In this document: positions 19,867 to 34,486 of the stretch, one piece after another
How the letters are laid out: each line of letters opens with the position of its first letter
Numbering within the stretch: position 1 is the first letter of the stretch
From: Desulfobulbaceae bacterium
GTDB lineage: Bacteria > Desulfobacterota > Desulfobulbia > Desulfobulbales > SURF-16
Reading direction: 5' to 3'
NCBI GenBank assembly: GCA_020444175.1
Contig: JAHLLM010000047.1
Location: 1-40,791, forward strand
DNA length: 40,791 nucleotides
Notes under the pieces: model-generated
Databases searched by the model: none
Seen by the model: the letters and a program-made list of their open reading frames with translations, nothing else
Told to the model about the DNA's origin: nothing
Made by a program: the position numbers and the translations under genes

Positions 19867-20457
19867 ATGAAATACCAGCAATTAAGTGAAGAAGAGGAAA
19901 TCCGCGATATTTTTTTCGGCATTATCAACCGCTTTATCGGACTCCATACCAGGGAATCAGTTCAGCGGTCCGCCAATGACACGGCAAACGAGTATCCCTT
20001 TGTTCCCATGGATACGAGGCAGCTCTTTGATCAGCTCTATTTTACAGCCAGATACCTGAAGCAGAACAGGCCGGGAAAGAAAAATTTCAGTTTTATTGAT
20101 GTGGGTTGCGGCATCGGCAACGTCATGCTCTTTGCCGAGCAGATGGATTTTGATGTTTTTGGCTTTGAAAAGGACCCCTACCCATGTGAAATCGCCAAGA
20201 AAATAATGGGCGAAGACAGAGTGCGTGAAGATGATATCTGGAAGTTCGAGGGCTACGAGAATTTCGACGTTATCTATTACTTCCGCCCCTTTCCCAATGC
20301 GGATATGCAGACCAGATTCGAAAGGATGATCGAAGACAAATTAACACCGGGCGGCATCCTCATCGCCAACCGCAAGATGAGTAAAAAAATCGATTCCGAT
20401 CCCCGTTTCACAAAATTACGTCAAAACCTGCCCGTATGGCTGAAAAGTGAAGCGTAA
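19867..20457 (+). CDS. Class I SAM-dependent methyltransferase-like protein
   Basis: ATG at 19867 follows CGGAGAAATA. The 196-residue product has the SAM-binding motif I in FIDVGCGIGN (76-85), an acidic residue at the end of strand 2 (FGFEKDPYPCEIAKK) and the post-motif NFDVIYYFRPF. The late LTPGGILIANRKM strand is also typical. The substrate is unknown. The unusual YYFRPFPN in place of the more common Asn/Asp-Pro-Pro-Tyr argues against a nucleic-acid N-methyltransferase. A 17-bp piece of its 3' end (20428-20444) is duplicated exactly at 21502-21518 within the repeat array, so the flanking repeats were copied together with the end of this gene. Confidence 0.8.
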   Translation: MKYQQLSEEEEIRDIFFGIINRFIGLHTRESVQRSANDTANEYPFVPMDTRQLFDQLYFTARYLKQNRPGKKNFSFIDVGCGIGNVMLFAEQMDFDVFGFEKDPYPCEIAKKIMGEDRVREDDIWKFEGYENFDVIYYFRPFPNADMQTRFERMIEDKLTPGGILIANRKMSKKIDSDPRFTKLRQNLPVWLKSEA

Positions 20458-20469
20458 GGTGTGAAGGCG

Positions 20470-20608
20470 GTAGGTTGGGTAGAGCGTTGCCTGTTACAAA
20501 ATCATGTTGGGTTGCGCTCTTGCCCCTGGCGTTTCACCATCCAGCATGGGAAAAAATAAAGCGAAACCCAACAATAATGAGCTCCAAATCCACTTAACCC
20601 AACCTACG
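20470..20608 (+). repeat. RAYT-type palindromic repeat, copy R2
   Basis: This 139-bp copy is bounded by GTAGGTTGGGTAGAGCG and TTAACCCAACCTACG, with inner GTTGGGTTGCGCT and AGCGAAACCCAACAA arms. It begins 12 bp after the methyltransferase stop. Its loop is closest to copy R5. Confidence 0.88.
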
Positions 20609-20647
20609 GTCAGCGAAGTAAAATATGAGGGATGAGATGAAAAAGCG

Positions 20648-20789
20648 GTAGGTTGGGTAGAGCTGAACTAAGCCACCAAATTTTGTTGGGTTTCGCTCCT
20701 GCACTTTGTACTCCATCATCCCGGCATGAAGAAAAGCTAAGCGAAACCCAACAATGATCAGCCATTACACCCGCTCTACCCAACCTACG
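20648..20789 (+). repeat. RAYT-type palindromic repeat, copy R3
   Basis: This 142-bp copy with complete outer and inner arms ends 13 bp before the transposase ATG. It may therefore contain or modify the transposase promoter and leader, since its hairpins would lie in any transcript that begins upstream. Confidence 0.88.
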
Positions 20790-20802
20790 GTGTGACAAAA
20801 AA

Positions 20803-21345
20803 ATGCAATACCGCAGAGATCGGACAAAAGGCGGAACCTTTTTCTTTACCGTTGTAACGCACAACAGAAGAAAAATTCTGTGCCAACCAGATAACATCAT
20901 TTTGCTTCGCCGGATTTTCAAGGAAATGGTGACAAGGCATCCATTTGTCATCGATGCCTTTGTTCTGCTTCCGGAGCATCTGCACTGTATCTGGACGCTA
21001 CCCGATGGGGATGAAAATTTTTCCACACGCTGGCGTTTAATTAAAGGTGCTTTCACAAGAAAATGTAGTGCAAAATATAAAGCCAATCCCTCCTTATCAA
21101 GAAAAAATAAAAATGAGCAGTCTGTCTGGCAGCGCAGATTCTGGGAACATTGTATCCGGGATGAGGACGATTTCGACCGCCATGTTGCCTATATCCATTA
21201 CAATCCTGTCAAACACGGCCTTGTTTCCTCGCCTCATGAATGGCCGTATTCGAGTTTTCACCGTTACGTGCGTGAAGGAATTTATCAATTAAATTGGGCC
21301 GCGGAAAAAGAAATCATCCTCGCCCCAAAGATAGGCATGGAATAA
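20803..21345 (+). CDS. REP-associated tyrosine transposase (RAYT, Y1/IS200-like)
   Basis: This 180-residue single-strand DNA transposase of the Y1 HUH superfamily has the metal-binding HUH motif in PEHLHCIWTLP (His59, His61) and a candidate catalytic Tyr133 in YIHYNPVKHG. The motifs WQRRFWEHCIRDEDDF and EWPYSSFHRYV are characteristic of RAYTs as opposed to true IS200 transposases. RAYTs are domesticated enzymes thought to mobilise or maintain short palindromic repeats. All motifs are intact and no frameshift is seen, so it could be active. ATG at 20803 lies in an A-rich stretch with no strong ribosome binding site, which predicts low translation. Two repeats lie upstream and three downstream. 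Confidence 0.95.
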   Translation: MQYRRDRTKGGTFFFTVVTHNRRKILCQPDNIILLRRIFKEMVTRHPFVIDAFVLLPEHLHCIWTLPDGDENFSTRWRLIKGAFTRKCSAKYKANPSLSRKNKNEQSVWQRRFWEHCIRDEDDFDRHVAYIHYNPVKHGLVSSPHEWPYSSFHRYVREGIYQLNWAAEKEIILAPKIGME

Positions 21346-21361
21346 ATGATGTGCGCTATCG

Positions 21362-21500
21362 GTAGGTTGGGAAGAGCGTTGCCTGTCGTGAAATCATGTT
21401 GGGTTTCGCTCTTACCCTTGGCGCTGCATCATCCCTGCATGTGGAGAGTTGCGCGAAACCCAACAATGATGAGCCATTAACCCACTCTACCCAACCTACG
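21362..21500 (+). repeat. RAYT-type palindromic repeat, copy R4
   Basis: This 139-bp copy starts 16 bp after the transposase stop. Its right half, from GCGCTGCATCATCCCTGCAT to the end, appears identical to that of R6, which points to recent local duplication. Confidence 0.88.
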
Positions 21501-21563
21501 GCTGCCCGTATGGCTGAAGCGTGAGGAGTGAGGTGTAAGGCGTGAGACGAAAATGCGGTAGCG

Positions 21564-21703
21564 GTAGGTTGGGTAGAGCGTTGCCTGTTACAAAATTATG
21601 TTGGGTTTCGCTCTTACCCCTGGCGCTGCATCATCCCGGCGTGAAAGAAGGTTAGCGAAACCCAACAATGATGCGCCATAAACCTCGCTCTACCCAACCT
21701 ACG
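21564..21703 (+). repeat. RAYT-type palindromic repeat, copy R5
   Basis: This 140-bp copy is preceded by a GTGAGGAGTGAGGTGTAAGG spacer and, before that, by the duplicated 17-bp end of the methyltransferase gene. Its left half (GCCTGTTACAAAAT) matches R2 best. Confidence 0.88.
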
Positions 21704-21754
21704 GTTGCTTGTGGAACGTGAGGAGTGAGGTGTAAGGCGTGAGACGAAAATGCG

Positions 21755-21893
21755 GTAGGTTGGGTAGAGCACTGCCTGTTACCAAATCATGTTGGTTTTT
21801 GCTCTTGCCCTTGGCGCTGCATCATCCCTGCATGTGGAGAGTTGCGCGAAACCCAACAATGATGAGCCATTAACCCACTCTACCCAACCTACG
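21755..21893 (+). repeat. RAYT-type palindromic repeat, copy R6
   Basis: This 139-bp copy is preceded by the same GTGAGG-type spacer as R5. It ends 8 bp before the stop of the radical SAM gene on the opposite strand, so it lies in that transcript's 3' end and could serve as a terminator or stability hairpin. Confidence 0.88.
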
Positions 21894-21900
21894 GGTACGG

Positions 21901-23190
21901 CTACGGTAAATAGGTTATTTCCTGTTTAATGGATGCTTCCAGGGTCGCGTCGAGAAAATCCTTCTGGCAATCCACCTTGGCCATGTGGCCGTCGCGTTGA
22001 TAGGCCATGTAGCGGCAGCCTCCGAAGCAGAGGGGCAGATAGGTGCAGTCCAGGCATTTTTCTTCGTTTTTCCAGTGATCAAGATGGTACTGCTGCCGGT
22101 AGTCCCGCATGCCCTGCCAGACGTCCCCGCAACTGTATTCCTTATGGCCGATCATGGCCACGCACTGGTAAAGCCTGCCGTCATAATGGACCACAAAGCT
22201 GTTTTCCACATCCACCATGCACAGGGACGGGGTAATCTCATTTGCCGGATAGCCATGTTTCAATATCTCTTCCCGCAAAAAAGGGGCCGCCTGGGCCAGC
22301 CATTTTTCATTACTTGAGGCGCAGCCGCCGCAGAAGCCGGAGGAAAAATCGTCACGGACCTGCATGACAGGAGAAAAAGAAAGCTGATGAATATTTTCAG
22401 GAGTTAAACCTTGTTGCTCCAGATGGTCAAAGAGTTGCGGAAATTCCCGGTAGTTTTCCTCGGTAAAATTGCCGTTAATGGCGATTTTCAGAAGATCCGC
22501 GCACTCTCTTATATTACCCACAATAACATCAAAGCTCGGTTTGCCGGATTGATAGGGACGGAAAAAATTATGGTTTTCCGGAGGCCCGTCAATGGTGATC
22601 TTGGCCCGTTTGAGCCCAAACGGCAACAATTTCTGAACGGTTTTCCGGGTCAATAGGGAGCCGTTGGTGACCAGGGTTGTTTCAAAAAGAGCGCCCAGTT
22701 CTTCAACAAAGGGTTGTAAAGAAGCGGCAAGATGTTTGATTAGCGCCGTTGCCAGGAGGGGTTCGCCGCCGTAGAAATCAAGGGTCAGCCGGGTCATGCC
22801 CGGTTGGAAGCGTTCTTTGATAAAGCCTGCAAGCTGATCTGCGGTTTGCTTACTCATGACGCTTTTGCCCTTCTGGCTGCCCTCGTAGCAGTAGCGGCAG
22901 CGGAAGTTGCACTGCAGGTTGACAATAACAGAGACGTTCATTGCCGTGCGCCGGCTGTTGATCCGTTCAACCAGTTGGAAGGCTTCCTCCTTCTCTTTTT
23001 TAAGATCATCCACCACCAGGCCTTGTTCGCGCAGCATGCTCTCTTCATCTTCATCAAGGCAGCCTTTCTGAAGATCCTCAAGTATTGCCGCTGGAATCAG
23101 GGCTTTTGCTGCATTAAGAGTGGAATAGACGAGCCGCAGTTCGGAATCGTCTGGCCAGGGATAGACAAGGGCGTAGCGGGAAAGAAACAT
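21901..23190 (-). CDS. Radical SAM/SPASM peptide-modifying enzyme (RiPP maturase)
   Basis: The 429-residue protein has the radical SAM cluster CNFRCRYCY (Cys94, Cys98, Cys101) and the GGEPLL strand that contacts SAM. The C-terminal SPASM region holds auxiliary Fe-S cysteines: FCGGC, then SLCMVD, YQCVAM, SCGD and the CLDCTYLPLCFGGC cluster with a last DCQKD cysteine. The first 90 residues (ALVYPWPDDSELRLVYSTLN) are the kind of extension that binds a leader peptide. It resembles the maturases described for geopeptide-type RiPPs in Geobacter relatives; I recall that name but could not check it. Such enzymes install thioether or other carbon-centred crosslinks. The candidate precursor is encoded 70 bp upstream on the same strand. 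Anaerobic sulfatase maturases share the architecture, but no sulfatase is present. Confidence 0.92.
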   Translation of the reverse strand: MFLSRYALVYPWPDDSELRLVYSTLNAAKALIPAAILEDLQKGCLDEDEESMLREQGLVVDDLKKEKEEAFQLVERINSRRTAMNVSVIVNLQCNFRCRYCYEGSQKGKSVMSKQTADQLAGFIKERFQPGMTRLTLDFYGGEPLLATALIKHLAASLQPFVEELGALFETTLVTNGSLLTRKTVQKLLPFGLKRAKITIDGPPENHNFFRPYQSGKPSFDVIVGNIRECADLLKIAINGNFTEENYREFPQLFDHLEQQGLTPENIHQLSFSPVMQVRDDFSSGFCGGCASSNEKWLAQAAPFLREEILKHGYPANEITPSLCMVDVENSFVVHYDGRLYQCVAMIGHKEYSCGDVWQGMRDYRQQYHLDHWKNEEKCLDCTYLPLCFGGCRYMAYQRDGHMAKVDCQKDFLDATLEASIKQEITYLP

Positions 23191-23232
23191 GGATGTACTC
23201 GTTCAAATAAGAATGAATTGATACAAAAGGAA

Positions 23233-23252
23233 AGGGGAGCCGAAGCTCCCCT
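23233..23252 (-). promoter_or_regulatory. UUCG-tetraloop hairpin between precursor and maturase genes
   Basis: Read on the minus strand, AGGGGAGC-TTCG-GCTCCCCT forms an 8-bp GC-rich stem with a C(UUCG)G tetraloop, followed by TTTCCTTTTG. It begins 8 bp after the precursor stop and ends 42 bp before the maturase ATG. The short, interrupted T-run suggests a leaky terminator or a 3' stabiliser that yields more precursor than enzyme message. Confidence 0.7.
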
Positions 23253-23260
23253 GGTTTTTA

Positions 23261-23374
23261 TTACTCGTCAGGACCTACCGGAGCAGGTGATCCCGTTTTA
23301 CAGCAATTTGTGGTATTTGCCACCTGTTTGAGGCTGAGTTTTTGGGTAAGAACAACGATTTTCCTTTTTTTCAT
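23261..23374 (-). CDS. Putative RiPP precursor peptide (37 aa)
   Basis: An ATG at 23374 lies 7 bases after AAGGAGAG, a strong ribosome binding site, and opens a 37-codon gene. The first 20 residues are basic and leader-like (MKKRKIVVLTQKLSLKQVAN). The remainder, TTNCCKTGSPAPVGPDE, has adjacent Cys24-Cys25 and a Pro/Gly-rich tail, which looks like a modifiable core. A radical SAM/SPASM gene follows immediately on the same strand, which is the usual arrangement for such peptides. The frame is open upstream to 23524, but that extension lacks a ribosome binding site and has ordinary noncoding composition. No protease or exporter gene is adjacent, so processing would depend on genes elsewhere. The role as precursor is inference from context and peptide form. 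Confidence 0.82.
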   Translation of the reverse strand: MKKRKIVVLTQKLSLKQVANTTNCCKTGSPAPVGPDE

Positions 23375-23613: not shown

Positions 23614-25455
23614 TCAAAAATGAAACTTTATGCCTGCCTCAACCCAACGATGGGCATTGTCATAAATTTCATGCCAGTAATCCCGGCCGTCAAAGAGGTT
23701 GTGGGCTGTGAAAAAAAGATCCATTGAAGAGCGTTCATTGAGCTGCAGAGGCTTTGTCAGACTGAGGTCCCAGACCATAGCGGTCATCCCCGTGTTACTT
23801 TTGAGGTTTTCATTCCACCACATGTAGCGGCCGAAAAGATCGGCAATAACAAAATCGGGATTGTCATAGCGCAGGGTGAGTTTAGCGCTGTAGCTGTCGT
23901 CATTGACTTCCGTACCATAAGTACCCGTATAAACATAGGTATAACTAGCTAGAGCGCTGAAGTCGTGCCAGGGGAAAGTTTCAACTTCCACTTCAACGCC
24001 GTAGCGTTTGGCTTTGCCGCCATTGTAATAGAGATCTGTGGCATAGTCATAGTCCCATTCATCTTTGACATGGTGCTCAAACAGGGTGGCCTTCAGGCGG
24101 CAGGCTGGAAGAAGTGTTGTTTCCACTCCGGCCTGATAGGAGGTGACCTTTTCCGCTTCAAGGCCGGGAACAGCGTTTATTGCCGTCGACATGTATGGTT
24201 TTCGAAATCCACGTGAAGCGAGGAATCGAAAGAGGGTGTGGTCGGCTGCCTGCCAGGTGATGCCAAGGCTTGGACTGGTGATGCTGTCGGTCAGGGAAAA
24301 ATGGTCATAGCGCACACCTGGGGTCAGGGTGAAGGAGCCAAGGGTGATTGTATCGTTTAAAAAGAGTGCCCAGGTTTCGTCATAATCCCTTTGGCTGGTG
24401 GCATCGTCATGATGGTCCCGCTCAAATTCTCCACCCAGAACAAGCACTTGCGAATCAAAAAGGCTGGTCAGGCGACTGTTAAAGCCGGTAGCGGTATTAT
24501 CATCAAAAGCGTCGAAATAGGTCATTCTGTCAGGAAGGGTATAATAATCCCTGATGTATTTTTGCTGGTAGCGGAAGGCGCCAACATTGAGGCTGACCGT
24601 GTCGCAGACCAGCGTGTCCACTGTGACGGTGGACCAGAAGTTGCGGTCCGTTCCTGTTGCACCATAACTGTATTTGTCCCAATCGAAAAAACGCATCTCC
24701 GGCTCACTGTAGCCGCTCAGGATGGTAAGGGTTGTTTGATGGGGCAGATCAATGCTTGCCTTGCCAAAGATGTCTTCCTGGTCATAATACCTGTTGTGCA
24801 GAAAGCCATCGGAACTCTGGCTGCCCGCAGCCACAAAATAACCCACAGGTCCGGCCTTGCCGGTAATGTCAACCTGATATTCCTGGGAGTTGTATTCTCC
24901 GTATGAGGCGCTGACGGTGCCGCTCGGCCGTGTGTTCTTGCCTGTTTTTTTACTGATGATATTGACCACTCCGCCCAGGGCCGAGCCCCAGGTGGACGAG
25001 GCCGGGCCCTTGATGACCTCGATACGGTCAATGATGGCAACCGGGATGGAATTGGTCACCGCCATGCCGGCACTGATATCGTTCCAGCGTACTCCGTCAA
25101 CTAGAACCAGTACATGCTCATAATCTGAATCCTGGACATGAAATGCAGTTGACTGGTTAAAGCCTCTACCATTAAAACCAACGGAAAAACCGGGCACCCG
25201 ATTCAACACCTCCGCTACGCTATGGGCGTTCATGCGTTCAATGTCCTGGGCCGTGATAATGGTGACGTTTTCCGCCACCTGTTTGATGGATTTGGCAACA
25301 CTAGTCGGCGTTTCCACCACCTCGTCCATGTCAAAATACATGGCAAGGGTTTCATCTTCCATATTCATGGACAAATCCTGGCAGAGAACCGAGTTGGGGA
25401 CAGCAAAAGGGCAGAGCAGGAGCAAGGCGGCGGTGGCAAGGAGTTTCTTCTTCAT
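23614..25455 (-). CDS. TonB-dependent outer-membrane receptor 1
   Basis: The 613-residue protein has a signal peptide (MKKKLLATAALLLLCPFAVP) and a short N-terminal section with the conserved MYFDMDEVVETPT segment that may include the TonB box. The plug domain follows: ENVTIITAQDIERMNAHSVAEVLNRVPG, then VLVDGVRWND and IEVIKGPASSTWGSALGGVVNIISK. The C-terminal 22-strand-type barrel ends in Phe, as outer-membrane proteins do. It is BtuB-like in size but the ligand cannot be read from sequence. The paralogue at 26312-28153 has the same length. Both point away from the sensor operon and lie on the same strand as the RiPP genes. Candidate ligands are a metal chelate, a cobamide or a modified peptide; this is conjecture. 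Confidence 0.94.
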   Translation of the reverse strand: MKKKLLATAALLLLCPFAVPNSVLCQDLSMNMEDETLAMYFDMDEVVETPTSVAKSIKQVAENVTIITAQDIERMNAHSVAEVLNRVPGFSVGFNGRGFNQSTAFHVQDSDYEHVLVLVDGVRWNDISAGMAVTNSIPVAIIDRIEVIKGPASSTWGSALGGVVNIISKKTGKNTRPSGTVSASYGEYNSQEYQVDITGKAGPVGYFVAAGSQSSDGFLHNRYYDQEDIFGKASIDLPHQTTLTILSGYSEPEMRFFDWDKYSYGATGTDRNFWSTVTVDTLVCDTVSLNVGAFRYQQKYIRDYYTLPDRMTYFDAFDDNTATGFNSRLTSLFDSQVLVLGGEFERDHHDDATSQRDYDETWALFLNDTITLGSFTLTPGVRYDHFSLTDSITSPSLGITWQAADHTLFRFLASRGFRKPYMSTAINAVPGLEAEKVTSYQAGVETTLLPACRLKATLFEHHVKDEWDYDYATDLYYNGGKAKRYGVEVEVETFPWHDFSALASYTYVYTGTYGTEVNDDSYSAKLTLRYDNPDFVIADLFGRYMWWNENLKSNTGMTAMVWDLSLTKPLQLNERSSMDLFFTAHNLFDGRDYWHEIYDNAHRWVEAGIKFHF

Positions 25456-25655
25456 CTTTTTCCTATTTATTTTGAACAGTTAAGGTCGATAAAACAAAAA
25501 GTCAACCATGCAAAAAATGTTGCTTGTAATGTCCTGAATTTACGTTGAAAAAGCATGATGCATGGACAATATAGGGGAATCATCTTTTAATTTCAACACA
25601 TAATGGTACATATTGATACAACGCATTGTTATAATGCGTCATTATTGGTTTTTTC
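25456..25655 (-). promoter_or_regulatory. Upstream region of TonB receptor 1 with a block shared with receptor 2
   Basis: The plus-strand block 25528-25552 (TGAATTTACGTT core, flanked by AATG and an A-run) is repeated at 28209-28233 upstream of the second receptor gene at a similar distance. It may be an operator or promoter element common to both genes. No cobalamin-riboswitch-like fold was recognised. Confidence 0.45.
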
Positions 25656-25958
25656 GTAGGTTGGGTAGAACGGATTAACTACCTCAAATTTGCTGGGTTT
25701 TGCTTCACTCTTTTCATGCCGGGATGATGGAACGCCATTGGTAAGAGTGAAACCCAACAGAATTTTATGACGGACGACGCTCTACCCGACCATTAAAAGT
25801 GGAGACGTAGATTAAAATTGTTGGGTTTCGCTTATCTCACTACATGCAGCATAATGAACCGCCAAGGGGCAAACGCGTAACCCAATAGATATTTGAGCAA
25901 AATATCCGCTTTACCCAACCTACCCCTGCTGAGAATGGAGCGGCAGGGGGGAAGCAAC
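25656..25958 (+). repeat. RAYT-type composite repeat, tandem unit R7
   Basis: The roughly 300-bp unit starts GTAGGTTGGGTAGAACGG and contains two REP-like halves: one with GTTTTGCTTCACTC/GAGTGAAACCCAACAG arms, the other with TTGTTGGGTTTCGCTT. It ends in TTTACCCAACCTACC and a GCGGCAGGGGG tail. It is directly repeated by the next unit 304 bp on. Confidence 0.85.
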
Positions 25959-25959
25959 T

Positions 25960-26262
25960 GTAGGTTGGGTAGAACGGATTAACTACCTCAAATTTGTTGG
26001 TTTTTGCTTCACTCTTTTCATGCCGGGATGATGGAATGCCATATGGGCAAGAGTGAAACCCAACAGAATTTTGTGACGGACAACGCCCTACCTGACCATT
26101 AAAAGTGGAGACGTAGATTAAAATTGTTGGGTTTCGCTTATCTCACTACATGCAGCATAATGAACCGCCAAGGGGCAAACGCGTAACCCAATATATATTT
26201 GAGCAAAATATCCGCTCTACCCAACCTACCCCTACTGAGAATGGGGCGGCAGGGGGAAGAAC
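25960..26262 (+). repeat. RAYT-type composite repeat, tandem unit R8
   Basis: This is a near-identical direct copy of R7 with scattered substitutions, for example TTGTTGGTTTTTGC for TTGCTGGGTTTTGC. It ends with the same GCGGCAGGGGG tail. The two units fill most of the gap between the paralogous TonB receptor genes. Confidence 0.85.
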
Positions 26263-26292
26263 GAGATCCGACAAGACATGGTAACCGGGTAT

Positions 26293-26309
26293 CGCTCTAC
26301 CCAACCTAC
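26293..26309 (+). repeat. RAYT-type repeat fragment R9
   Basis: Only the right arm GCTCTACCCAACCTAC remains. It ends 2 bp before the stop codon of TonB receptor 2 on the minus strand and probably marks an old insertion or recombination end. Confidence 0.7.
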
Positions 26310-26311
26310 TT

Positions 26312-28153
26312 TCAAAAATGGAGACGGAGTCCGGTTTCGACCCATCGATGAGCATTATCGTAAATTGAATGCCAGTAATCGCGACCGTCAAAGAGATTGT
26401 GGGCTGTGAAAAAAAGATCAACCGAGGTGTCACTGCTGAGAAGCAAGGGTTTAGTCAGGCTCAGATCCCAGATCGGAGTGGCGGTGGCAAGGGAGGTTTT
26501 TCGTTCTTCATTCATCCAGATATACTGGCCGAAAAGTTCGGCAATAAAAAGTTCCGGATTGTCATAGAGCAAGTTGACTTTAGCTGTGTAACTGTAGGTA
26601 TTGTCCTCTGAACCACGATTGTCCGTATACACGTAGGTAAAACTCGCCAGAGAAGTGAAGTGGTGCCAGGAGGCAGTCTCAGCTTCCAATTCATAACCGT
26701 ACCGCTTGGCCTTACCGCTATTTGAGGTTAGGTCGGTGTCAAAATCATAATGCCATCTATCTTTGACATGGTGCTCAAACAGGGTGGTTTTCAGCCGGCA
26801 GGAAGAAAAAAACGTTGTTTCCACTCCCGCCTGATAGGAGGTGACTTTTTCTGATTCAAGGCCGGGGACGGAATATTTGACGGTTAACATATAGGGTTTG
26901 CGAAAGCCCTGTGACGCAAGGAAACGAAAGAGGGTGTGGTCGTCCGCCTGCCAGGTGATGCCAAGACTGGGGCTGAAAATGCTGTCTGCCAGGGAGAGAT
27001 GGTCATAGCGCACGCCCGGGGTCAATGAAAGGGAGCCGAGTGGGATTGTGTCGTTGACAAAGAGTGCCCAGGTTTCGTCATAATCTCTTTTATCGGTAGG
27101 ACTGTCGTGGTAGGCCCGTTCAAATTCTCCTCCTGCAACAAGGACATGGGAACCAAAACGGCCAGTCAGGTGGCTGCTGACACCGCTTGCTGTATTATCA
27201 TCAAAACTATCAAAAAACGTGGTCTGGTCCGGCAGTGAATAGTAATCCCTGATGTATTTCTGTTGGTAGCGGTAAGCATTAACATTAAAGCTGATTGCGT
27301 CGTTAAGGAGCGTGTCCAGCGTGACGGTGGACCAGAAGTTGCGGTCCGTTCCTGTCGCGCCGTAATCATTTTCAACCCAATCGAAAAAACGCATCTCCGG
27401 CTCACTGTAGCCGCTCAGTATGGTAAGGGTTGTTTGATGGGGCAGATCAATGCTTGCCTTGCCAAAGATGTCTTCCCGGTCATAATACCTGTTGTGCAGA
27501 AAACCATCGGAACTCTGGCTGCCCGCAGCCACAAAATAACCCACTGGCCCGGCCTTGCCGGCAACAGTGGCCTGATACTCCTGGGAGTTGTATTCTCCGT
27601 AAGAGGCGCTGACAGTGCCGCTGGGCCGTTTGTTCCTGCCTGTTTTTTTACTGATGATATTCACCACCCCGCCCAGGGCCGAGCCCCAGCTTGAGGAGGC
27701 CGGGCCCTTGATGACCTCAATGCGGTCAATGATGGCCACAGGGATGGAGTTGGTTACCGCCATGCCGGCGCTGATATCGTTCCAGCGCACTCCGTCAACA
27801 AGAACAAGGACATGCTCAAAATCGGAATCCTGGATGTGTAATGACTCCGTCTGATTAAACCCCCTGCCGTTAAAACTGACAAAAAAACCGGGGACTCTGT
27901 TAAGTATATCTGCCACGTTATGGGCGTTTTGGCGTTCAATCTCAGAGGCCGTAATGATGGTGACGTTTTCCGCCACCTGCCTTAATGGCTTGGAGGAATG
28001 GGTTGGGGCCTCGGCCACCTCGTCCATGTCAAAATACATGGACAGGGTTTCATCTTCCATATCCATGGTCATGTCCTGACCCAGGACAGACAGCGGGGGG
28101 GCAAAGCCGGACAACAGCACTGTGACGCCGGCTGCAAGGAGTTTCTTCTTCAT
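26312..28153 (-). CDS. TonB-dependent outer-membrane receptor 2
   Basis: ATG at 28153 gives 613 residues, the same length as receptor 1; an upstream in-frame ATG at 28195 adds an implausible basic leader. It has a signal peptide (MKKKLLAAGVTVLLSGFAPP), the segment MYFDMDEVAEAPT, and a plug domain nearly identical to receptor 1 (VLVDGVRWNDISAGMAVT, IEVIKGPASSSWGSALGG). Divergence is greatest in the barrel loops, for example in the stretch after the HHVKD motif. This is what is expected after duplication with change of ligand contacts. The barrel ends in Phe. It is divergent from the PF04392-type binding protein gene, sharing its upstream region of about 320 bp. Confidence 0.94.
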   Translation of the reverse strand: MKKKLLAAGVTVLLSGFAPPLSVLGQDMTMDMEDETLSMYFDMDEVAEAPTHSSKPLRQVAENVTIITASEIERQNAHNVADILNRVPGFFVSFNGRGFNQTESLHIQDSDFEHVLVLVDGVRWNDISAGMAVTNSIPVAIIDRIEVIKGPASSSWGSALGGVVNIISKKTGRNKRPSGTVSASYGEYNSQEYQATVAGKAGPVGYFVAAGSQSSDGFLHNRYYDREDIFGKASIDLPHQTTLTILSGYSEPEMRFFDWVENDYGATGTDRNFWSTVTLDTLLNDAISFNVNAYRYQQKYIRDYYSLPDQTTFFDSFDDNTASGVSSHLTGRFGSHVLVAGGEFERAYHDSPTDKRDYDETWALFVNDTIPLGSLSLTPGVRYDHLSLADSIFSPSLGITWQADDHTLFRFLASQGFRKPYMLTVKYSVPGLESEKVTSYQAGVETTFFSSCRLKTTLFEHHVKDRWHYDFDTDLTSNSGKAKRYGYELEAETASWHHFTSLASFTYVYTDNRGSEDNTYSYTAKVNLLYDNPELFIAELFGQYIWMNEERKTSLATATPIWDLSLTKPLLLSSDTSVDLFFTAHNLFDGRDYWHSIYDNAHRWVETGLRLHF

Positions 28154-28477
28154 CTTTTTTCTTTTTATTCTCAAGGGTTGCGATAGGCGAAGCACAAAAA
28201 ACGAGTATAATGCCTTGAATTTACGTTAAAAAAACAGAGTTGGCAAACAATTTAGAGTAAAATTCTCTCAATTACAATGAATAACGGCATAATAAGTGCA
28301 TTAATTTGTTATATTTTGTTGTTATATTGAGCCATTTTGTTGGGTTTTGCTCTGCCCTTGCAGCCTGATCATGACAGCAGATATGGCATCAAGGCGAAAC
28401 GTAACGACTTCGGATTAATGATCCTCTCTCCCCAACTCTCTGGAAATACATGATAAATATTTGTTTTTTAAGTAGTA
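28154..28477. promoter_or_regulatory. Divergent control region between TonB receptor 2 and the sensor operon
   Basis: About 320 bp of AT-rich DNA serve two divergent transcripts. It contains the receptor-shared block at 28209-28234 and a decayed RAYT-type repeat (28331-28437). No open frame was found. Promoters could not be placed with confidence. Confidence 0.5.
28331..28437 (+). repeat. Decayed RAYT-type repeat R10
   Basis: TTGTTGGGTTTTGCTCTGCC and, later, GGCGAAACGTAAC and CTCTCCCCAAC retain the order of the inner and right outer arms, but with many changes and no left outer arm. It is probably an old copy. Confidence 0.55.
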
Positions 28478-29404
28478 ATGTGGAAAAATAGCAAAATGAT
28501 TATAAGAATCATCGTAACACTCTTCCTCTTTCTGGGGCTGGGCCGGGCGGCTTTTGCCTATGAGGTTGTTGTGCTTCATGGAGCAAAAATCAAACCTTAT
28601 TTAGAGGTGTCCGAGGCATTTACTGCAGAGTTTGCCCGCGTTGTCCCGGGCAGGGGCTTGAAGTCCATAGAAGACCATGTTTACCTTGAAATCTTTATTG
28701 ACCAACAGATGTCCGATCAGGAGATTGAAAGTCGCATCAAGAGATTCTCGCCTGATCTTATCCTTGCCTTGGGCCAAAGGGCTCTTGTCGCGGTCCAGGG
28801 AATACGGAATGTTCCTGTTATTTATCTCCTGGCCTCCCAACCTGAAAAAATCATGGCCGGGCACGATAATATCACAGGTGTGAGCCTGTTCCTCCCGCCG
28901 AAGCTCCAGTTTAAAGAAGTCAGGAAACTTCTGCCCCAGGTAAAAAGGGTGGGGGTTATCTACAATCCTGGACGCAGCGCGGAATTTGTCATGCAGATGC
29001 GCCAATGCTGTCCTCATTTCACTTTTATCAAAAATGAGGCGCTTTCAAGTAAAGATGTTCCCGCGCTTCTCGACTCCATTAAGGGGAAGATAGATCTTCT
29101 TTGGATGCTGCCCGATGCAACTATTATCAATCCTAAAACTTTGAAAAACTATTTTCTCTTCTCGTTTAAGCAAAAAGTCCCTGTTCTCACTTTTTCCAGC
29201 AAATACCTCCAGCAGGGTGCAGCTCTTGCCGTCACCTTTGATCTGTCCGGCCTGGGCAGACAGGCTGCAGACATTTCCTTGAGAATACTGCAGGGTGAAA
29301 AGGCGGGTTCCATTAAACCATTGGCTCCCACTCAGAGTAAGACGTATATAAATTATAAAATCTTCAATAAGTTAAACGTTCCGCTTGCTGGAGCACAGAA
29401 GTAA
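28478..29404 (+). CDS. Periplasmic binding protein of the PF04392 (ABC substrate-binding-like) type
   Basis: The 308-residue protein has a signal peptide (IIVTLFLFLGLGRAAFA, cleavage near AFA-YE) and a type I periplasmic binding fold. It shows RFSPDLILALGQRAL, NVPVIYLLAS, NITGVSLFLPPKLQF, VKRVGVIYNPGRSAEF and LDLLWMLPDATIINP-like blocks, as in PF04392 proteins often annotated as ABC transporter substrate-binding. No permease or ATPase gene is nearby. Instead a membrane histidine kinase starts 2 bp after its stop, so it probably presents a ligand to that kinase rather than to a transporter. ATG 28496 is an alternative start. The ligand is unknown; the divergent TonB receptor suggests that it may be the imported compound. 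Confidence 0.82.
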   Translation: MWKNSKMIIRIIVTLFLFLGLGRAAFAYEVVVLHGAKIKPYLEVSEAFTAEFARVVPGRGLKSIEDHVYLEIFIDQQMSDQEIESRIKRFSPDLILALGQRALVAVQGIRNVPVIYLLASQPEKIMAGHDNITGVSLFLPPKLQFKEVRKLLPQVKRVGVIYNPGRSAEFVMQMRQCCPHFTFIKNEALSSKDVPALLDSIKGKIDLLWMLPDATIINPKTLKNYFLFSFKQKVPVLTFSSKYLQQGAALAVTFDLSGLGRQAADISLRILQGEKAGSIKPLAPTQSKTYINYKIFNKLNVPLAGAQK

Positions 29405-33067: not shown

Positions 33068-34486
33068 ATGATGAAAACTGTTTTGAATCCGGATCTCCCT
33101 ATTCTTCTGGTTGATGACGACAAAGATGTTGTCAATGCAGTTTTGCGGACATTGCGCGTCAATGGTTATAACAACTTTCTTTCCGTAAATGACAGCCGCA
33201 AGGTGATTTCTCTACTGAATGAGGAAAGGGTTGCCTTGGTGCTCCTTGATATCACCATGCCCCATATTCGCGGTGATAAACTTTTAGAAGAGATTGTTGT
33301 TCATTTTCCCAACCTGCCTGTCATTATGTCCACTGCCAGTGATTCCATTGAAATGGTCGTTGGCTGCATGAAGAAAGGGGCTTTTGACTATATTACCAAG
33401 CCATTGAGCACCGGCCTTTTACTGGCATCCATCCAGAAGGCGCTGGATGTTCGGGAGCTGCGTCGGGAAAATGATGCACTGCGTGCAAAGGAGTTGAACG
33501 GCCCGCTAATGCATCCCGAATTTTTCCGGGAAACCATTAGCCAGAACAGGGAAATGTTCAATGTTTTCCACTATATCGAAACAATAGCCCCAAGCAGTCA
33601 ACCGGTTTTGATAAGCGGAGAAACAGGAGTGGGCAAGGAGCTGGCGTCCCGATCAATTCACAAGGCGAGCGGCAGGCATGGTTCCCTGGTTGCCGTCAAC
33701 GTTGCCGGCCTTGACGATGAGGTGTTCAGTGACACCCTGTTCGGACACACCCGAGGCGCCTATACCGGAGCGGGCAACTCCAGGGACGGTCAGGTGAAAA
33801 AGGCTGCGGCAGGGACGTTATTCCTTGATGAGATAGGGGATTTAAGCATGAAATCCCAGGTTAAACTCTTACGTCTCCTGCAGGAAAAAGAATACCTGCC
33901 CCTGGGAGCTGATACACCCCAGAAAAGCGATGCCCGTATTATTGTCGCTACCAATCAGGACCTTGCTGAGCAGGTGAAGGAAAATTGTTTCCGGAAAGAC
34001 CTCTATTTCCGGCTTTACGCCCATCATGTTGCCCTGCCTCCCCTGCGTCGACGGTTCGACGATCTGCCTCTTCTTGTTCCTCATTTTGTAAGGCTTGCGT
34101 CCAGGGATTTCGGTAAAAAGGAACTCCGAGTTCCCAAGGAACTCTACCCATTCCTCGAAAATTACACTTTCCCGGGGAATATCAGAGAGCTAAAAGCCAT
34201 GATATTCGATGCTGTGAGTCGCCAGAAGGGGAATACCCTTGGGCTGGACTCATTTCGGGAACACCTTGGATCTGCTCAGATATCCATGAAGCCTGGCAAA
34301 CAGGAAAAACACAGCAATGTATCTTTTGGGCAACAACTTCCATCGGTAAAAGAAGTTCGACTCCTTCTGGTCAAGGAAGCACTCAGTCGTTCCGGGGGAA
34401 ATATCAGCCTTGCGGCACGTCTTATTGGTCTTTCCCGCCAGTCTCTCAGTCAGTTTATGAGTAATCATAAGATTGTTGTTCCCTGA
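33068..34486 (+). CDS. NtrC-family sigma54-dependent response regulator
   Basis: The 472-residue regulator has a receiver with acidic pocket DDD (16-18), Asp61 in LLDITMP and Lys111. The AAA+ domain shows Walker A GETGVGKE (184-191), the sigma54-contact loop GAYTGA (230-235, with Tyr for the usual Phe), Walker B LFLDEIGD (251-258) and the arginine finger region LPPLRRRFDDLP. A Fis-type helix-turn-helix closes the protein (GGNISLAARLIGLSRQSLSQ, about 443-462). It should activate sigma54 promoters when phosphorylated, most likely by the two kinases just upstream (126 bp gap). Target promoters could not be identified with certainty. Confidence 0.95.
   Translation: MMKTVLNPDLPILLVDDDKDVVNAVLRTLRVNGYNNFLSVNDSRKVISLLNEERVALVLLDITMPHIRGDKLLEEIVVHFPNLPVIMSTASDSIEMVVGCMKKGAFDYITKPLSTGLLLASIQKALDVRELRRENDALRAKELNGPLMHPEFFRETISQNREMFNVFHYIETIAPSSQPVLISGETGVGKELASRSIHKASGRHGSLVAVNVAGLDDEVFSDTLFGHTRGAYTGAGNSRDGQVKKAAAGTLFLDEIGDLSMKSQVKLLRLLQEKEYLPLGADTPQKSDARIIVATNQDLAEQVKENCFRKDLYFRLYAHHVALPPLRRRFDDLPLLVPHFVRLASRDFGKKELRVPKELYPFLENYTFPGNIRELKAMIFDAVSRQKGNTLGLDSFREHLGSAQISMKPGKQEKHSNVSFGQQLPSVKEVRLLLVKEALSRSGGNISLAARLIGLSRQSLSQFMSNHKIVVP

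Follow-up and report, generated by a model that had tools for sequence, protein, structure and literature searches.

The stretch of DNA analysed here (the window: 40,791 nucleotides, contig JAHLLM010000047.1 of a Desulfobulbaceae bacterium) carries on its minus strand a small peptide gene followed by a gene coding a radical SAM/SPASM enzyme, with two genes for TonB-dependent receptors upstream of the pair; genes for a binding protein, two kinases and a response regulator are located on the plus strand. The features are:

21901-23190, minus strand: geopeptide radical SAM/SPASM maturase, 429 aa, with a predicted N-terminal RRE-like domain (residues ~1-85); TIGR04280
23233-23252, minus strand: GC-rich hairpin, then TTCCTTTTG, terminator/attenuator-like, in the gap between precursor and maturase
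23261-23374, minus strand: geopeptide-type precursor, 37 aa, Cys24-Cys25; ORF and family profile
23614-25455, minus strand: TonB-dependent receptor 1 (member of the geopeptide-linked clade), immediately upstream of the precursor; PF00593 108.1 bits, PF07715 85.9 bits, tree, BtuB-like fold (Z 41.4)
26312-28195, minus strand: TonB-dependent receptor 2, tandem paralogue, 75% identical, start codon uncertain; Pfam match, tree
28478-29404, plus strand: periplasmic binding protein, ABC_sub_bind; PF04392 86.2 bits
29407-31125, plus strand: histidine kinase, 2 nt past the binding protein; PF02518 96.1 bits
31070-32941, plus strand: receiver-GAF-histidine kinase; Pfam match
33068-34486, plus strand: sigma-54 response regulator; PF00158 186.4 bits, PF00072 85.5 bits

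The precursor ORF begins at ATG 23374, behind a GGAG ribosome site, and its stop codon ends at 23261; the encoded peptide is MKKRKIVVLTQKLSLKQVANTTNCCKTGSPAPVGPDE. The maturase ORF (ATG 23190, stop 21901) follows on the same strand after a gap of 70 nt. The original prediction, made from the DNA letters, had described a 37-residue Cys-Cys peptide and a SPASM enzyme as a RiPP pair similar to geopeptide-type systems, and its coordinates were confirmed. The enzyme matches TIGR04280 along residues 1-427 with 524.7 bits (curated cut-off 400), the next NCBIfam match being CefB, with 174 of 600 bits. The radical SAM domain is recognized by PF04055 (53.3 bits, gathering 29.5) and the SPASM domain by TIGR04085 (54.8 bits, cut-off 27), with the Pfam SPASM model PF13186 at 18.5 bits, below 21.5. 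The radical SAM cysteines C94-x3-C98-x2-C101 are invariant in an alignment of 24 sequences, and so are C324, C343, C379, C382, C388, C392 and C408, the seven auxiliary-cluster cysteines of the SPASM pattern; the full SPASM cysteine set that had been read from the window is found again throughout this alignment.

Searches with the geopeptide models, as had been suggested for this pair, gave a divided result: the enzyme falls inside its family, whereas no model of NCBIfam or Pfam recognizes the peptide and TIGR04229 (geopeptide precursor, cut-off 30 bits) gives no match with it at E up to 10, the best match of the window's genome (12.8 bits) being at another place. TIGR04229 is narrow, matching 6 of 33 members of the precursor family at E up to 10; among 10 relatives, the Geotalea precursor (L044) is over the cut-off and another one reaches 29.6 of 30 bits. 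Since the enzyme exceeds TIGR04280 and the peptide lies outside TIGR04229, the former belongs to the named family and the latter to a divergent branch of its substrate family. The window thus resembles the NCBIfam geopeptide system in its maturase and in the short precursor located just upstream, which contains Cys-Cys and a VL motif; it differs in that its precursor is outside TIGR04229 and in the receptor, binding protein and kinase context that is added here. The precursor branch and the system context are new here, the enzyme family being already known. No publication on the geopeptide family or its function was found in a literature search that excluded most subscription papers, hence no claim of priority is made; a passage search gave no mention of TonB, receptor or uptake in PMC13097082, and neither geopeptide nor TonB in PMC4289311, Geobacter being present there solely under lasso peptides.

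The window peptide was recovered (E 1.8e-4 among 40,931 small ORFs; best reversed control 0.25) by a leave-family-out profile of 83 precursors, none from the GTDB family of the window, which had themselves been gathered with a profile whose 68 seeds contained the window peptide. Judged by this match, the peptide is a homologue of the precursors found beside TIGR04280 maturases, which form a wider geopeptide precursor family. Comparison of nine related precursors along 1291 codon pairs revealed 443 differing first, 318 second and 711 third positions, a pattern resembling that of a coding gene.

TIGR04280 was searched in 395 genomes of the phylum, where 40 gave a match with E up to 1e-60 and 31 were over the cut-off, and in 257 genomes of the order, with 64 and 61, respectively; named maturase loci were added from a profile search of genome contigs. 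The linkage set comprises 104 maturase loci above 430 bits (custom profile), contained in 102 stretches; 12 of 117 maturase matches, below 430 bits, were left out of the linkage counts, and L187, on the same contig as L036, was removed from every count. The 68-precursor profile gave 109 matches at E up to 1 with the 40,931 small ORFs of the stretches and 5 with reversed ORFs (best 0.13); at E up to 0.03 it yielded 100 homologous precursors, located in 97 of the 102 maturase stretches. At this E-value no precursor was found in L040, L045, L046, L169 and L171, with L045 having a weak hit (E 0.44) and the match of L046 lying at the contig start. The absence of homologous peptides beside homologous enzymes, named in the original prediction as counting against a geopeptide-type pair, is therefore not what is seen, and the assignment stands. 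Most precursors precede the maturase by no more than a few hundred nt (~1.6-1.7 kb in L036, L163, L167 and L184); they have a median length of 35 and contain Cys-Cys in 98 cases out of 100; those of L233 and L235 have a single Cys, aligned with the second Cys of the others. Cys25 is invariant in 33 aligned precursors, which fits a modification of Cys24 or Cys25; past the cysteines, the precursor alignment shows no conserved acceptor or other residue conserved as crosslink partner.

The hairpin in the gap between the two genes is a recurrent feature. None of 40 dinucleotide shuffles of the window hairpin was equally strong; a hairpin with a stem score of 18 or more, ~70 nt or less from the stop codon, is found after 76 of the 92 precursors located upstream of a maturase, including the window one, and in 71 of the 92 cases no more than 2 of 40 dinucleotide shuffles were equally strong. 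At least 4 T are present among the nine nt 3' of the hairpin in 51 of the 76. Such an element would fit a high output of precursor and a low output of enzyme.

The AlphaFold model of the maturase (pLDDT 91.7) has the SCIFF maturase CteB (5why) as best Foldseek match; with VIA-align, anSMEcpe, CteB and ChlB are nearly tied at the top (Z 26.6-27.9, CteB 27.3), and TigE also aligns. Residues 7-80 of the model fold as three strands followed by helices, and this N-terminal domain is included in the whole-model alignments, which start at residue 4 for CteB and at residue 1 for TigE. CteB is a thioether-forming enzyme with an RRE that binds the leader; given the likeness to this enzyme, thioether chemistry on Cys-Cys is the likeliest guess for the window maturase. 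This enzyme thus has its best Foldseek match among the ranthipeptide/SCIFF maturases (CteB, PapB, TIGR03974); unlike them, it reaches 136.4 of 340 bits with the PapB model NF047865 and 102.8 of 425 bits with the SCIFF model, and no conserved acceptor was seen in its precursors.

The pair had been described as a compact locus, whose product may stay inside the cell. The comparison of loci supports neither statement: the pair sits in a larger set of genes, and a TonB-dependent receptor is present within 2.6 kb, on either side, in 90 of the 90 maturase loci having at least 2.6 kb of upstream sequence. In the window, receptor 1 has both the plug and the barrel domain (PF07715 and PF00593) over the Pfam gathering score. 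A PF00593 receptor occurs within 3 kb in 26 of 27 loci from 22 whole genomes, as compared with 0.31 expected by chance, the receptor coordinates near maturases being hand-picked from the PF00593 matches for this test; the receptor of the 27th locus (G027) is missed by PF00593 and found by the clade profile. The sole PF00593 receptor of G025 is at a geopeptide locus, and so is each of the two of G098. As regards position, the nearest receptor is upstream on the same strand in 80 of the 104 loci and upstream on the opposite strand in 15, including L041, L042 and the Geotalea locus L044; two receptors were scored downstream (L168 being an artefact of an over-long ORF), and the seven loci without a receptor all have less than 1.8 kb upstream. 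The gene content persists despite this varied orientation, and in two Nitrospirota MAGs (L039 and L040) the receptor, maturase, binding protein, kinase and sigma-54 regulator are all on the same strand. When upstream regions were scanned for sigma-54 sites, these were scored in 8 of 88 for the receptor and 8 of 88 for the maturase, as compared with 61 of 1760 random windows. The linked receptor has undergone a tandem duplication in the window (23614-28195), and doubled receptors are present in L232 and L239 too.

The related loci carry the same set of genes as the window. Of the 59 long loci, which extend for at least 7 kb upstream and at least 5 kb downstream, 56 have a PF04392 binding protein within 6 kb and 57 have a kinase within 7 kb; these are raw counts, the chance expectation having been computed for the receptor alone. 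The 93 binding-protein ORFs include 66 binding protein-kinase pairs not more than 60 nt apart, 45 of which overlap. When neighbours were clustered, the maturase cluster occurred in 91 stretches, the receptor in 89, the binding protein in 75, the kinase in 72 and two response regulators in 29 and 13, every other cluster being found in 9 stretches or fewer; families were named by eye, save those scanned by profile. Precursor, maturase, dedicated receptor, binding protein and kinase form a conserved partnership. A candidate fusion of binding protein and kinase in L218 was rejected, as in the 907-aa ORF an unresolved residue precedes a stretch that does not resemble the family.

The receptor is not only close to the maturase, it also belongs to a distinct clade. 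A maximum-likelihood tree (quick mode) was built with 46 of the 89 linked receptors and 25 others from the same genome set, of which 6 from the window's genome, L246 and L261 being left out of the others since no row passed the filters; a branch with SH-aLRT 100 separates the 46 linked receptors from these others. A clade profile, trained like the other receptor profiles on linked receptors, found the receptor in 68 of the 257 genomes of the order: 60 genomes have both receptor and maturase, 4 the maturase only, 8 the receptor only and 185 neither (Fisher p 1.5e-44, which overstates independence because the genomes share ancestry). In the four maturase-only genomes (G609, G472, G484 and G570) the gene is at a contig edge, with less than 700 nt of contig upstream. 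In the phylum, each of the 31 genomes whose maturase exceeds the cut-off has the receptor at 500 bits or more, a line that was set after the scores were seen (gap from 519.7 to 463.9); the sole other phylum genome with at least 500 bits is G154, with neither precursor nor maturase at that place. Among the nine genomes having a sub-cut-off maturase only, weaker receptors are present in G096 (464 bits) and G163 (352 bits), and none was found in the other seven at E 1e-80; seven further phylum genomes, absent from the maturase list, have receptor matches of 274-316 bits.

In G096, a longer Cys-Cys candidate ORF (L179:8799-8997, profile E 0.23) lies directly upstream of the sub-cut-off maturase relative, with a 432-bit receptor 1.7 kb away. 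L180, L181 and L182 also contain sub-cut-off maturase relatives (274-299 bits, custom profile), accompanied by a kinase, a sigma-54 regulator and a TonB receptor whose clade score is low; no precursor was found beside them.

The receptor may also outlive the maturase. Three genomes of the order illustrate this: G606 retains an intact precursor that no maturase follows, G486 a precursor and pieces of the maturase, and G501 the last part of the maturase without an intact precursor; the receptor, binding protein and kinase ORFs are kept in all three. In other receptor-only genomes the contig ends ~250 nt or less past the receptor gene (G614 and G590), or the precursor and the start of the maturase are at the contig end (G487). 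The module of G539 comes with neither precursor nor maturase, and in G506 a divergent SPASM enzyme (228 bits) adjoins the receptor. Precursors or precursor-like ORFs adjoin receptors without an adjacent intact maturase in L269, L270 and L283; the last belongs to the third receptor module of G153, where the ORF L283:8443-8545 (E 0.0063) contains Cys-Ile-Cys and has no maturase beside it, and might be served in trans by the two maturases of this genome. A receptor outlasting the maturase is what would be expected from a product shared outside the cell; a second use of the receptor would give the same asymmetry.

The presence of a receptor and sensor genes beside the peptide-maturase pair suggests that the finished peptide may carry metal or act as a signal outside the cell, and then return. 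We give about even chances to an exported RiPP, probably modified on cysteine, for which the linked receptor would serve in recapture and the binding protein-kinase pair perhaps in sensing. In such a scheme, the peptide, whose gene has the hairpin at its 3' side, would be produced in excess over the enzyme; its N-terminal segment KKRKIVVL, probably strand-forming, would bind the RRE-like domain of the maturase, and the SPASM radical SAM enzyme would modify the Cys-Cys region, a thioether-type crosslink being the most likely outcome. The product would then leave the cell, perhaps via an MFS pump in some lineages, act outside as a metallophore or signal, re-enter the periplasm through the dedicated TonB-dependent receptor as its presumed ligand, and be perceived there by the PF04392 binding protein and the adjoining histidine kinase. 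More tentatively, and with the balance somewhat against it, geopeptides in general could be secreted, radical-SAM-modified metallophores or pheromones, for which recapture by the own receptor and reading by the binding protein and kinase form one circuit, the receptor-only genomes using the product of their neighbours. The constant, clade-specific receptor partner makes the RiPP directly testable, by asking whether the receptor binds the mature peptide. If it does, anaerobes such as Geobacter relatives, Desulfobulbaceae and some Nitrospirota would possess a peptide-based uptake or signalling system comprising makers and non-makers. Methanobactin and PQQ, the latter with PqqU, are peptide products recaptured by TonB-dependent transport; the geopeptide loci resemble them in combining a peptide-derived product with a TonB receptor, and differ from PqqU in the receptor itself, which has PqqU among its NCBIfam and PDB matches and scores 48.0 of 1200 bits with that model.

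The receptor, binding protein and kinase could instead serve an unrelated nutrient or metal, importing and sensing it, while the modified peptide would remain in the cytoplasm and assist that pathway as a regulator, as a chaperone or as the precursor of a cofactor. We regard this as rather unlikely, and yet it accounts for several findings. In the window's genome, L244 contains a binding protein-kinase-regulator-receptor module without geopeptide, and other binding protein-receptor pairs are also present, hence such modules serve other ligands; moreover, no MFS exporter was found in 95 of the 104 loci, and the module is kept after maturase loss in the three genomes described above. However, the receptor clade itself tracks the maturase, in 31 of 31 genomes of the phylum and 60 of 64 of the order, and precursors or precursor-like ORFs persist next to receptors in the three loci devoid of an adjacent intact maturase.

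As regards export, the original prediction had noted that neither exporter nor protease adjoins the pair, and this was borne out, with no MFS match in the window. An MFS gene is present within 0.7 kb of the maturase in 9 of the 104 loci, and in 7 of these it lies on the opposite strand; the four that were scanned exceed the gathering scores of PF05977 and PF07690 and match EntS and macrolide pumps under the cut-off. The sole recurrent peptidase family recognised is of the M23 cell-wall type (8 stretches, downstream, opposite strand), which is no likely leader protease. A small Cys-containing RiPP with an occasional MFS gene could also be a microcin-like antimicrobial, since TonB receptors are entry routes for microcins, with the receptor as entry gate or as part of self-protection. 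This is improbable: a binding protein and a sensor kinase accompany nearly all the long loci, and a receptor in the producers would presumably expose them to their own product.

The receptor could, on the other hand, be a cobalamin or corrinoid transporter with a merely historical peptide neighbourhood. BtuB is its best fold and the BtuB model TIGR01779 its best NCBIfam match, with 162.7 bits; the cut-off of this model is, however, 599.7 bits. The fold and the profile matches make the receptor similar to BtuB and to catecholate receptors (CirA), from which it differs in being under the cut-off of each of 25 NCBIfam receptor models among the matches listed, and in that the sampled linked receptors form a clade of their own. 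No Rfam family reached its gathering score in the window and five loci, so no cobalamin riboswitch was found in these six sources, and the linkage of receptor and peptide survives differing gene orders. With a score so far below the cut-off and no riboswitch, cobalamin transport is a rival rather than the answer, and we judge it decidedly improbable. An anaerobic sulfatase maturase with its sulfatase elsewhere, and a chance ORF as peptide, is hardly credible: anSMEcpe is among the closest folds and the genome contains a PF00884 protein, but the enzyme has 69.7 bits against a cut-off of 349.45 with TIGR03942 and 524.7 against 400 with TIGR04280, and the precursor family is conserved. These results contradict the reading, which the original prediction had named as one that would refute it.

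A Fur-type regulator is located just downstream of the maturase, on the same strand, in 4 stretches (for example L217:8098-8748), which is suggestive of metals, the cases being too few to use. An ORF located between the maturase and the binding protein of a Nitrospirota MAG (L040:11323-11995) resembles, on visual inspection, a small methyltransferase. In the window, repeated blocks with GTAGGTTGGGTAGAGC / AAACCCAACA, in both orientations, occur at 20443-21896 and 25656-26256 and flank the peptide-receptor region; a Y1 (IS200-like) transposase at 20803-21345 adjoins them, and the blocks look like a REP-type element family.
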